Below are positions 52,893 through 60,976 of a stretch of DNA of 60,976 nucleotides, in pieces. The notes beneath the pieces were generated by a model that saw nothing but the letters and a program-made list of their open reading frames with translations, made no database searches and was not told where the DNA came from. How positions within the stretch are numbered: position 1 is the stretch's first letter; each line of letters opens with the position of its first letter. A program made the position numbers and the translations under genes. Origin of the DNA: Terriglobia bacterium (lineage in GTDB: Bacteria; Acidobacteriota; Terriglobia; UBA7540); NCBI GenBank assembly GCA_020073545.1, contig JAIQEZ010000010.1:1-60976 (forward strand). The letters run 5' to 3'.

Positions 52893-53387
52893 TCATCGTT
52901 CACGCACGCTTTCCCGCGCCTCGGCGTAATTGAGCAACCGTCCTCCGTGTTCAGCACGATACTTGTTAGCGCCGTCTTTCGTCGCAAAAGCTATGAGCAC
53001 TGGAGTGCATCGGTCGTACGCAAGTTCTGCTGAGCTCTCGAGCTCCTTGCGCTCCAACGGCTTAACGTGTGCGCAGTACACTTCGTTTCCGCCTTCGACG
53101 TAGTACGATTTCTCGGCAGGAATCTCTGCTCCGGTATAGAAGTCCTTGGCGAAGGCCGCATGTACGATGCCGGGATGATGCAAGTCGTAGTGGATTCCAC
53201 AACGGGGACAGCACGCCGTCTCGGATCCCTTGGCCAGCACGAGCCGGTAACCCATCCCTGCGTGGACTGGGCGTTGACATACCTGGCATATCTGGTTGGT
53301 GCGTTCTGCCGCGTGACGGAGGATCACGGTGCCGACCAGAACTGCAAGCACTAACATCGAAGTGCTAAGGATGAGCTTTCGTACCAC
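52893..53387 (-). CDS. NosL-like Cys-rich metal protein of the efflux operon
   Basis: A 164-residue protein with an N-terminal membrane anchor or signal (LILSTSMLVLAVLVGTVIL). It is rich in likely metal ligands: C34 and C37 (ICQVCQRPVHAGM), C59, C60 and C63 (ACCPRCGIHYDLHH) plus several histidines. The end (KDGANKYRAEHGGRLLNYAEA) resembles NosL, the copper-binding accessory protein of nitrous oxide reductase. It starts with GTG, with GAGGAGG upstream, and follows the RND pump gene by 18 bases. A periplasmic copper chaperone or sensor role for the efflux system fits. Confidence 0.72.
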   Translation of the reverse strand: MVRKLILSTSMLVLAVLVGTVILRHAAERTNQICQVCQRPVHAGMGYRLVLAKGSETACCPRCGIHYDLHHPGIVHAAFAKDFYTGAEIPAEKSYYVEGGNEVYCAHVKPLERKELESSAELAYDRCTPVLIAFATKDGANKYRAEHGGRLLNYAEARESVRER

Positions 53388-56400: not shown

Positions 56401-56696
56401 CCGTCCTCAAAAATGATGTACACATAGGAGTAGCCAAAGTCCGAGAAGCCCCGGATGTCTTGAACCTTAGACACGCCCAGCAAAGAGGTAATAATGGGGT
56501 AGGTGACCTGGTCTTCCATGATGTCGGGGCTGCGGTCCCAGCGCGAATAGATGATGACCTGCGTGTCGGAAAGGTCGGGAAGGGCGTCCACCGTGACGTT
56601 CTTCATCGAATACACGCCGCCCAAGACCGCCAAGCCGATGACGAGGAGGACCGTAAACTTGTTGTGGGCGCAGAGTTCGATAATGCGATTGACCAT
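53406..56696 (-). CDS. cusA: CusA/CzcA-family heavy-metal efflux RND pump
   Basis: Inner-membrane proton-driven pump of about 1096 residues from the HME branch of RND transporters. The N-terminus MVNRIIELCAHNKFTVLLVI, DALPDLSDTQVIIYSRW and PDIMEDQVTYPI are diagnostic. Twelve membrane helices fall in two halves, with acidic proton-relay residues in GAMVDASIVVVEQTHKK and the late RLRPKVMTVGVMFMGLVPIL motif. Copper/silver specificity is inferred from the CusB-like adaptor and NosL-like neighbour. GGAG lies eight bases before the ATG at 56696. The pump is separated from its adaptor by two extra genes or fragments, which is not the usual order. Confidence 0.95.
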   Translation of the reverse strand: MVNRIIELCAHNKFTVLLVIGLAVLGGVYSMKNVTVDALPDLSDTQVIIYSRWDRSPDIMEDQVTYPIITSLLGVSKVQDIRGFSDFGYSYVYIIFEDGTDIYWARSRTLEYLSNILPRLPQGVNVELARDETAVGWVFEYALVDTTGKNNLAQLKTYQDWYLRYALQGVPGVAEVAPIGGFVRQYQVNLDPNALLAYKLPLDKVTDAIRQGNNDVGGRLVEFSGREYMVRGRGYIKSVADVENVVLANNSDTGAPILVKNVGTVTLGPDIRRGVAELNGEGETVGAVVIMRYGENALNVINRVKAKLQEIEPSLPPGVKVVTTYDRSDLIERSIETLKGTLIEELAIVSLVIIIFLWHIPSALIPILTIPIAVILSFIPMHAMGLTSNIMSLGGIAIAIGAMVDASIVVVEQTHKKLEQWEAEGRPGSYKDVLISAVKEVGGPSFFSLLVIAIAFMPIFTLAGQEGRLFKPLAFTKNFSMGFAAVLAITLGPAMLMLLMRMDPYKFRPRWIAWIVNKVWVGKIHNEENHPISRPLMKLYHPVVEFSLRHRWAVVVSAALVVVFTIPIFNRLGSEFMPPLDEGVLLYMPATLPGISVTEAQQLLQVQDKVLKSFPEVERVFGKAGRAETATDPAPFSMMETVVVLKPELEWPKVHRWYSSWAPKWLRKIFRRVTPEHKTTQELIYGPGGLNEAMQFPGVSNAWTMPIKARVDMLTTGVRTPVGIKIMGSDLSKVQELGETIEMVLKDVPGTTSVFAERTAGGYFLDFGLKREELARYGLSIGQVEDVIMSAVGGENITTTVEGRERYPVNVRYLRDFRSNMDRLNRAVVPTMMGAQIPMAQLADVKMVSGPSMIRDENGRLSGYVYVDVTGRDIGSYVNDAKKTIRDKVTMPPGYTLVWSGQYEYMQRVKERMAIVLPITFLIIALLLYLNTGSAAKTLIIFLAVPFSAVGAIWFLYLLGYNTSIAVWVGLIALMGVDAETGVFMLLYLDLAYHEMEAKGKMKSLADLRESIIHGAVKRLRPKVMTVGVMFMGLVPILWSTGAGADVMRRIAAPMIGGIFTSFIMELAVYPAIYEIWRWHFWVKKVAKAPELPASS

Positions 56697-56715: not shown

Positions 56716-57924
56716 TTAGAGTGACTCCATTGATTCGACCGTCAGGTATCCGGACTTCTTCACAAAGCTTCCCCTTACCCGGACCTCGCGGGCGGCATAA
56801 ACGCGTGCGGTGAGTTGATCACTCAATTCGTAAAGCTTCTTTCCGTCATCCAGGATATATTTGGCGCCTTGCGCCACGCATGCCCTGACGCACTCTGCGC
56901 TGTCGGTCCGCGCATGACGAGGTCCGCACCGGCTGTCGGTAACCAAGCCCACAATCGTCTGGGAGCCGCCGCCCCATCTGGCAAGAGCGGCCTCTTCCAA
57001 AGAGGATCCAAACCTATGAGCCACCTCGCCAAATAGGAGTACCGCCACAAGTGTCAGGCCCAGCGTTACAAAGGCCGGCCGCGCTCCTCGCCAGATGAAC
57101 CAGCGATGATCAGGCGCTTCCAATCTTGCGAGTTCCTCCCCGTTCAACCTGACCTCGCACACGCCGTGCACACCCCGGGCGACCCGATGCACTTCGATAG
57201 GGCCTTCAGGCTCGCCGACGTATCCGCGGATCGACACGCGCCCGCGGTCTGACTCGGCCGCGAGTTCCAAGTTCGCCGTCGCGGGATCGGTGGCCAACGC
57301 CGCCTCTACCCGCGATGACACTACCAAGCCTTCGAGGAGCACCTCATCGGAACTGTCGGAAGGCCCTTGCGCAGATTGTCGCACAAGAGCGGCAATCGTC
57401 TCGCACGCTTCCGGGAGGTTGATGGAATCCAGGTTGATGATGATGTCGGAAGCGGGTTCGTTGTGTTCCCGTCCATAGGCTTCGCGCAGCCACTTGTTCC
57501 TGGCCCGATCCACGCGCATCAGATGAGCAGCGGCCTCTCCCATAGCTAACTTCAGCACCCGGCTCGCCGTACGGACCCGCGATTCGAAAGAAGCACAGAC
57601 CCGAACACGAATCATCGGTATCTTTTCCTGTAGCAGCAGGTGAGCCGCTTCGCCGCAGCAGACCGCGTTTCCATTCCGAACTTCTTCGGCGACGGCATTA
57701 CGGAGAACCAAAAAGTGAGATCGAGTTTTGCAGAGGAAACGGTCGAACGGCGCGGGGCTGTCCTCAAGGAAGTGCGCCAGTTCTTCCTGAGACCCACCCC
57801 AACTGGCAGCCCTCTCGACAGCCATACTGGAAGTGACCAGCGTGTAGCCCGAGTGTTCGGCGAGCGACTCCGCCAGTTGCACGTCGCCGCTGAAACGATC
57901 ACCAAGAATTAGAATCAGACTCAT
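56716..57924 (-). CDS. Chimeric cytidylate-kinase-like / BON / membrane / Cys-His domain protein
   Basis: A 402-residue protein with four parts. Residues 1-185 resemble the cytidylate-kinase-like family (PF13189): NAVCCGEAAHLLL, the arginine-rich RVCASFESRV and RVDRARNKWLREAYG, and SDIIINLDSINL. The P-loop is degenerate (ILGDRFSGDVQLAESLAE, no lysine). Residues 200-262 resemble a BON domain (VRL-G-V). A membrane helix lies at 283-300. Residues 323-402 hold a small extracytoplasmic domain with CGPRH (333-337) and C345, C349. AAGGAGGAG precedes the ATG. It sits inside the efflux operon, upstream of cusA. Confidence 0.78.
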   Translation of the reverse strand: MSLILILGDRFSGDVQLAESLAEHSGYTLVTSSMAVERAASWGGSQEELAHFLEDSPAPFDRFLCKTRSHFLVLRNAVAEEVRNGNAVCCGEAAHLLLQEKIPMIRVRVCASFESRVRTASRVLKLAMGEAAAHLMRVDRARNKWLREAYGREHNEPASDIIINLDSINLPEACETIAALVRQSAQGPSDSSDEVLLEGLVVSSRVEAALATDPATANLELAAESDRGRVSIRGYVGEPEGPIEVHRVARGVHGVCEVRLNGEELARLEAPDHRWFIWRGARPAFVTLGLTLVAVLLFGEVAHRFGSSLEEAALARWGGGSQTIVGLVTDSRCGPRHARTDSAECVRACVAQGAKYILDDGKKLYELSDQLTARVYAAREVRVRGSFVKKSGYLTVESMESL

Positions 57925-57968
57925 GTTACTCCTCCTTCAGGCTGTGTTCATGTTCCCCCGGCACCATC

Positions 57969-58191
57969 TCAGGCGGTCCACACCTCTTCAGTGACGTGAT
58001 ACAGAGTTGTAACTGCGACTTTCTGCGGCAATGGCTCCAGCCTGCACTTCACCTCGCCAGGATAGACTTTGGGAACGCCGCCACCTTCCGGCGTCACCCC
58101 GGAATAGCGTGCCGGTTTTGTAACTTGCGTGAAGTGCACGTAGTGGTCCTCGCCTTCGCCGCGGTGCTGAAATATGTAGCGCCCAGGCTTC
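57969..58191 (-). pseudogene. Fragment of an unidentified gene inside the efflux operon
   Basis: An open stretch of about 74 codons reads EKPGRYIFQHRGEGEDHYVHFTQV and on to PLPQKVAVTTLYHVTEEVWTA. It has no start of its own in a sensible place and no family was recognised. It begins just where the cusA-like remnant ends, but in another frame, so the two pieces were joined by a deletion. It may be the tail of a lost gene. Confidence 0.45.
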
Positions 58192-58275
58192 TCATCCGCC
58201 CAGCATCGCCACGCCGACAACAATGAAGATGATGAACTTGTTCTTCGCGCTGAACTCGATAATGCGGTTGATCAT
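58192..58275 (-). pseudogene. CusA N-terminal remnant (27 codons)
   Basis: The frame from ATG at 58275 reads MINRIIEFSAKNKFIIFIVV, then GVAMLGG and TGA. This matches the first 27 residues of CusA/CzcA pumps, including the intact cusA of this operon (MVNRIIELCAHNKF). The remaining thousand residues are missing. It lies in the expected position for cusA, 22 bases after the cusB stop, so the original pump gene appears to have been deleted and replaced further downstream. Confidence 0.8.
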
Positions 58276-59741: not shown

Positions 59742-60976
59742 CTACTGCGTCAGTTCCCGGCCAACCAGGACTTCTAGCCGGGCCAGAGCAGTTTCGAAAT
59801 TAGTTAACTCCTGGTAATATTCGATCTCGTATTCGAGGATCGTTTGGTAGTTCGAAAGCATGGAAAGGAAATCGAGCTTCCCGACCTCATAGCTGCTGAT
59901 GGATGAGTCCAGCGCAAGCGACGACTGGGGAACCAGAGCGCGCCCATATAATTGCACCAGCTCCTCTGAGGCCTTCGCCGACAGGTACTGTTGCTTGACT
60001 TCAAAATTGACGGAGTTCTGGCGGTCTTCGAGACGATCCCTTGCTCCGATCATTTCTTCGGTGGCCTCAATGACGCCTTCCCGTTGCTTGGTCTTGTAAA
60101 AGATGGGCAGGTTCATACCTACAGTGAATCCCTGCATGTCCGGCAGGAGCGGTCTCTGTTGGTACATGTAGCCCACTGTGAAGTTAGGGCGGTAATCTCT
60201 GCGAGCGAGGTTAACAGCCAACTGGCTGCGTTCGATCATCCTTTGTTCCCGCTTCAGGCCCGGATCGTTGTCCCGAGCCATCTGGTAGATTTCTTCCAGG
60301 GTGTAGGGTAACTTCGACTTCTGAATCGGGGTTGGCCCACCGATGGGCGCCTCCGGGTCCCTGTTGAGGAGCGTGTTCAAGCGCACTTGCGCCGTCCGTT
60401 CTTGTTGCTTCAGAACAGTCAGGCGCTGCAAAAGGCGAGACTGCTCGACCTGAGCTCTCAGAACATCCGACTGGATTCCCATGCCGACTTTATATCGGGC
60501 GTCGGCGATCTTGGTGAGCCTGCCCAGCAAGTCCTGGTCCTTCTGAATGATCTCGATCGCTTTGTGATAGTAGGCGTATTCGTAGTAGGCTGCCTTCACT
60601 TGCGCGACAACATCGCGGCGCGCATTCTCGAGATCCCATCGCAAGGCTTCTGCTTCGCGGTCGACGATCTGCCCGCGCAACTTGAGCTTGCCCGGGAACG
60701 GTATTTCTTGCATGAGGTTCAATCCCCGATAACTGGACGGGTCCCCTTTCTGCACACTATAGGGGGTGATGTTTCCGGCCCACCCTGTAGTCAGGACCGG
60801 ATCGGGCAGCGTTCGCACCTGCGGCACGCGGGCGCGTAAGGCCTGAACCTGCCGCGCCGCACTTTTGATGGCTGGGTTCCTGTCCAGAGCCTCGCGAACC
60901 AGATCCTGCAACGTGACCGCAGCCGGTTCCTGGGAACCCGCCGCAGCCACAGGGTCGGTGCTGGAAGTGGTCATGA
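59742..60976 (-). CDS. TolC/CusC-type outer-membrane efflux channel, 5' end may lie outside window
   Basis: Outer-membrane efflux protein with the two OEP repeats: the first around 24-200 (LVREALDRNPAIKSAARQVQ, then LNLMQEIPFPGKLKLRGQIV) and the second around 215-405. It is helical with Ala/Gln-rich stretches typical of TolC-type proteins. An ATG at 60974 begins MTTSSTDPVAAAG but lacks a signal peptide, so the real start is probably beyond the right edge. It is the first visible gene of the efflux operon. Confidence 0.9.
   Translation of the reverse strand, partial: MTTSSTDPVAAAGSQEPAAVTLQDLVREALDRNPAIKSAARQVQALRARVPQVRTLPDPVLTTGWAGNITPYSVQKGDPSSYRGLNLMQEIPFPGKLKLRGQIVDREAEALRWDLENARRDVVAQVKAAYYEYAYYHKAIEIIQKDQDLLGRLTKIADARYKVGMGIQSDVLRAQVEQSRLLQRLTVLKQQERTAQVRLNTLLNRDPEAPIGGPTPIQKSKLPYTLEEIYQMARDNDPGLKREQRMIERSQLAVNLARRDYRPNFTVGYMYQQRPLLPDMQGFTVGMNLPIFYKTKQREGVIEATEEMIGARDRLEDRQNSVNFEVKQQYLSAKASEELVQLYGRALVPQSSLALDSSISSYEVGKLDFLSMLSNYQTILEYEIEYYQELTNFETALARLEVLVGRELTQ

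Follow-up and report, generated by a model that had tools for sequence, protein, structure and literature searches.

A gene inside a copper efflux operon of a soil-type Terriglobia bacterium encodes a 402-residue fusion protein, in which a cytidylate-kinase-like (CK) domain, a BON-like domain, one membrane helix and an outer Cys/His domain related to DUF5818 follow one another. The window, that is, the whole stretch of 60,976 nucleotides analysed, comes from contig JAIQEZ010000010.1. On balance, and with modest confidence, we read the protein as a membrane-tethered accessory protein of the acidobacterial CusCBA copper/silver efflux system with a putative Cu(I)/Ag(I) site. Its most likely role is that of a CusF-like partner of CusCBA, with an inner half that is regulatory or sensory.

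As listed below, the operon genes lie on one strand in the order cusC, cusB, 84-residue ORF, fusion gene, cusA and NosL-like gene.

59742 to 60974, minus strand: cusC, reaching the contig end; homologous to the first gene of the cus operon at locus L049
58298 to 59722, minus strand: cusB, with an HMBD metal-binding domain and a Met-rich tail
57969 to 58223, minus strand: 84-residue ORF between cusB and the fusion gene, which may not be a gene
57929 to 57937, minus strand: strong ribosome-binding site AAGGAGGAG, 4 nt before the fusion ATG
56716 to 57924, minus strand: fusion gene, 402 residues, with an ATG start, a stop codon at 56716 to 56718 and homologues in other genomes
57355 to 57924, minus strand: Cytidylate_kin2-like domain, residues 1-190; GDRFSGDV replaces SRGxFSGG, the phosphate loop being degraded
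57139 to 57351, minus strand: BON-like domain, residues 192-262
57019 to 57081, minus strand: single transmembrane helix, residues 282-302
56719 to 56967, minus strand: DUF5818-like OB-fold domain, residues 320-402, with C333, H337, C345 and C349
53406 to 56714, minus strand: cusA, a Cu/Ag-type RND pump with equivalents of M573, M623, E625 and M672; the start is probably the ATG at 56696
52893 to 53387, minus strand: NosL-like protein with CxxC-type motifs, after cusA (NosL E 0.004, under the cut-off)

The fusion gene shares the strand of cusB and cusA, forms a continuous block with them and ends 1-19 nt before cusA. The 84-residue ORF had no Pfam or NCBIfam match and no relative in 40 related genomes, and a homologue of the NosL-like protein also adjoins cusA at two other fusion loci (L130 and L131). 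The best PDB match of the window CusA was E. coli CusA (E about 1e-299), and the alignment showed identical residues at M573, M623, E625 and M672, all of which hold Cu(I) in the E. coli pump (PMC8092243). Because CusA keeps the Met triad (M573, M623 and M672) together with E625, the operon is, judged by these ligands, of the copper type, and the membership of the fusion in a copper efflux operon, as claimed in the first-pass annotation, was borne out.

That annotation had also proposed the four-part order and a profile search with each part. The window protein scored over the Pfam cut-off for Cytidylate_kin2 (PF13189; E 3.2e-14, 53.9 bits against 28), but under it for BON (PF04972; E 6.5e-4, 20.4-22.5 bits against 27) and DUF5818 (PF19135; E 0.039, 13.9 bits against 27); it had no NCBIfam match. 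The two sub-threshold calls are nevertheless supported, because homologues match both regions. Stand-alone CK-BON proteins cover the N-terminal ~260 residues, the best of them at 35-40% identity, and many small DUF5818-type proteins cover the C-terminal ~80, the best at 36-45%. The outer domain was 41% identical (E 7.9e-12) to a DUF5818 paralog of the same genome that passes the cut-off, and the own-genome paralogs of this domain (L056) pass it with 27.2 and 35.1 bits.

Six fusion sequences served to build a full-length AlphaFold2 model (pTM 0.61, mean pLDDT 78.9; linkers poorly modelled), which showed a CK fold at residues 1-190, a BON-like unit at 192-262, a helix at 282-302 and a beta-rich OB-like domain at 320-402. 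The BON-like unit was arranged alpha-beta-beta-alpha-beta (helix 191-212, strands 220-226 and 229-235, helix 241-250, strand 257-260). The N-domain had a CMP-kinase-like fold, with 3hdt as best structure match (Z 15.7). Hydropathy gave one candidate membrane helix, at 284-302; the N-terminus is probably inside and the C-terminus in the periplasm, with a charge bias that is weak in some relatives. Pfam, the homologues and the model agree on the proposed order, and the model and hydropathy on a one-helix protein with a Cys/His outer domain. The CGPRH motif described for the outer domain is present, but the domain has three cysteines (C333 within CGPRH, C345 and C349) and not two. The fusions at L131 and L132 have an extra stretch before the membrane helix, which looks like a second BON-like repeat.

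The full fusion was found in 3 of 399 genomes of the class, the window genome and two others. When genome contigs were scanned for a protein pattern taken from the window sequence alone, there were no hits, and the scan with an alignment of three fusions found five loci in named genome contigs, two of them already surveyed (L131, the same as L049, and L132, the same as L089) and three new, from MAGs titled Bryobacterales, Terriglobia and Acidobacteria. Full-length fusions are therefore carried by five other Acidobacteriota MAGs, with 30-41% identity to the window protein. Locus L073 holds a probable seventh, whose contig ends after 208 residues and which has the fusion-type loop SEEAFSGG and VCYG.

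Copper genes lie beside all six fusions: CusCBA at four loci, a CopA-type ATPase with a CsoR-family repressor at one and a multicopper oxidase at one. The window fusion is inside the cus operon, the fusions at L130 and L131 are divergent from cusCB-NosL-cusA, and that at L132 is near cusCBA and a CopA-type ATPase. The L129 fusion adjoins a CsoR-family repressor and a P-type ATPase that carries YHS and HMBD domains, and the L128 fusion has a multicopper oxidase and an FtrD-like protein nearby; no CusCBA was found within the stretches examined around these two. At least five related bacteria carry this fusion next to copper genes, which makes it a genuine component of their defence against copper; the ORF is evidently a real, conserved, copper-linked gene. 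Chance joints, or relatives without linkage to metal efflux, had been named as findings that would speak against the first-pass annotation; instead, the fusion recurs in at least six genomes, and the neighbour survey found all six copper-linked.

In the outer domain, C333, C345 and C349 were invariant in 73 of 73 aligned sequences and H337 in 71 of 73. Modelled alone from seven sequences (pLDDT 88.9), the domain formed an OB-like barrel of five strands, in which a helical insert that carries Cys follows strand 1. The Foldseek matches listed were RPA, SSB, PriB and CcmE, and VIA-align gave OB-fold Z values of 5.7-7.0, which may reflect only a common arrangement. CusF was absent among the matches listed in this structure search, which is not evidence against a relation.

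Secreted DUF5818 proteins of Acidobacteriota are homologous to this domain and share its Cys, His, Cys, Cys pattern and its strands; unlike the fusion, they are free-standing. Among 61 surveyed loci chosen by score, 29 had a stand-alone DUF5818 gene that starts 51-1539 nt downstream of cusA, in the same orientation. These cus-linked proteins add two Met (in 29 of 30 and 30 of 30), and because the fusions lack both, the metal sites of the two groups may differ. A small secreted DUF5818 family with the residues C-H-M-C-C was seen directly behind cusA in many Acidobacteriota (L146-L192), and L129:11388-11789, about 8.5 kb from the fusion gene, encodes a stand-alone protein of the DUF5818 type whose tail is rich in Met (MPDMSGMPM). 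In a tree of only 86 columns, with many forks unresolved, the fusion C-domains made one clade (90/82) within a branch (99/95) that holds all cus-linked DUF5818 proteins, and other own-genome DUF5818 paralogs fell outside that branch. At the level of sequence, these results show shared ancestry of the outer domain with the small secreted proteins encoded directly behind cusA.

At 34 other CusA loci with 55% identity or more, a few of them limited by short contigs, there was no clear DUF5818 neighbour, and DUF5818 is therefore a lineage-limited accessory and not essential to Cus. Eleven loci of the same 151-genome sample had a stand-alone DUF5818, as did 2 of 6 lower-identity CusA loci. CusF_Ec genes occurred in 11 of 14 such genomes, away from these cus operons, the own-genome match being on another contig. 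Together with the features of the outer domain this fits, without proving, a CusF-like role, and the cus-linked stand-alone proteins are a candidate CusF analogue. We found no text on DUF5818 in the open literature searched.

The inner half resembles stand-alone Cytidylate_kin2 and BON proteins (~280 residues, Acidobacteriota), which correspond to fusion residues 1-262 and, unlike the fusion, have neither membrane helix nor C-domain. The phosphate loop SRGxxSGG is kept in 49 of 52 members of this stand-alone family, whereas it is absent from all six fusions, with GDRFSGDV in the window. Four other fusions have SEEAFCGG, SEEGFSGG, DDDYTCGQ and DDDYVTGR at this place, no recognisable phosphate loop, and the L128 fusion has the classical loop GSPFSGKT. 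The damaged P-loop of the first-pass annotation thus holds relative to the stand-alone family, but less so in general, as the PF13189 loop is already non-classical in 3hdt (EYGSGGR) and that of L128 is classical. A fusion-specific Cys lies in VC[YFC]G in all six, against VYHG in the stand-alones, and R116 and W145 are conserved in all fusions. In the CK-BON family tree, the fusion N-parts formed one clade (100/99) on a long branch, which includes L073, and both halves of the fusions are consistent with one origin.

Where typed, the neighbours of the stand-alone genes were often TauE-type transporters, PPDK-like proteins, ATP sulfurylase (Sat), Qmo-like or NrfD-type proteins, and in some cases siroheme proteins, whereas the fusion lies beside copper genes; around the stand-alones (27 stretches, some short), none of the copper markers searched for was found. 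Such proteins, often in tandem, were observed in sulfur-metabolism clusters at L042, L044, L048, L053, L055 and L091, where they may regulate dissimilatory sulfur metabolism in Acidobacteriota or act as enzymes in it. No main-text treatment of PF13189 was found in the open literature searched. With stand-alone CK-BON proteins in sulfur clusters and secreted DUF5818 proteins behind cusA, the fusion would therefore connect a diverged pseudo-kinase in the cytoplasm with a Cus accessory domain in the periplasm.

A metal-sensor role, as the first-pass annotation suggested, is possible, and two forms of it were weighed. In the first, which we hold only tentatively and below the accessory reading, the protein would be a new type of one-helix copper sensor or pump regulator, in which a Cu(I) site of the periplasmic OB fold communicates with the repurposed pseudo-nucleotide-kinase and BON part in the cytoplasm, so that the cell can tune CusCBA to the copper load. 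In the second, the periplasmic Cys domain would bind copper, and the CK-BON part would signal to a neighbouring histidine kinase (HK) and sigma-54 response regulator (RR) for transcription. Of the five other fusions, four do have orthologous HK (44-61% identity) and RR genes nearby (L130:11338-13867, L131:11555-14094, L132:11858-14419 and L128:14358-16822), on the strand of the fusion in L130 and L132. The N-terminal sensor of these HKs is short and hydrophobic, and they lack a large periplasmic domain. However, the pair also accompanied cus operons with a stand-alone DUF5818 (8 of 29 loci) and genomes where no fusion was found, so that it is a general cus neighbour and not a dedicated partner of the fusion, and the window genome had no homologue of the HK at E <= 1e-60, which argues against HK signalling as a general explanation. 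The kinase-coupled sensor is therefore kept only as a rival, and an unlikely one; the pair itself is a candidate copper regulator of the group. The CusRS two-component copper sensor resembles the fusion loci as a copper-linked envelope system beside cusCBA, but the fusion has no kinase or receiver domains, and the HK and RR near some fusion loci are of the sigma-54 type.

Alternatively, the three Cys of the outer domain could have redox activity or be paired in a disulfide, in which case the protein would be an envelope thiol-redox or assembly factor, the Cys would carry out disulfide exchange and the copper link would reflect oxidative or thiol stress. The CxxxC with a third Cys, the cytochrome c and CcmF/CcmH genes that adjoin some fusions and the presence of the heme chaperone CcmE among OB folds are in line with this, but there is no CxxC thioredoxin-like site, and the invariant His and the Met-rich cus-linked relatives suggest soft-metal ligands, which makes such a factor distinctly improbable. 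We give still less weight to an inner half that remains an active small-molecule kinase gated by periplasmic copper: the CMP-kinase fold matching 3hdt, the Walker A motif of L128 and the retained R116 and W145 agree with it, but the window and four other fusions lack a recognisable phosphate loop. A chance fusion or assembly artefact without function would account for the rarity among class genomes, yet it is hardly credible in view of six independent assemblies, the conserved copper linkage and residues invariant across 28-41% identity.

The accessory reading draws on the free-standing relatives of the C-domain, which are small secreted proteins of cus operons and fit a sensor role no better than metal handling. 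The periplasmic Cys/His cluster would bind Cu(I)/Ag(I), and the bound metal would be handed or reported to CusB/CusA, either in a CusF-like manner or as a measure of metal load. The inner pseudo-kinase/BON half, its ordinary kinase chemistry presumably lost, may bind a ligand, provide a docking site or act in regulation, and would in this way link the cytoplasm to pump activity or copper status. Like CusF/SilF, the periplasmic Cu(I)/Ag(I) chaperone of CusCBA, the C-domain is a small OB-like beta-barrel from a cus operon with predicted soft-metal ligands. The ligands of CusF are His-Met-Met-Trp, whereas the C-domain has a putative Cys3/His set, a helical insert and a relation to DUF5818; unlike CusF, it is tethered to the membrane and joined to cytoplasmic CK-BON, and CusF_Ec (PF11604) was not among the Pfam matches of the window protein up to E 1.

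A search of the open literature found no description of the fusion. As far as that literature shows, it is an undescribed Cus efflux accessory protein with an unusual cytoplasmic partner domain, in which a nucleotide-kinase fold, once its phosphate loop had been lost, was recruited to form the inner half of a protein that crosses the membrane and is linked to copper. DUF5818, an uncharacterised domain, thereby gets a concrete place as an accessory of the Cus copper pump in Acidobacteriota, possibly in the role of CusF.
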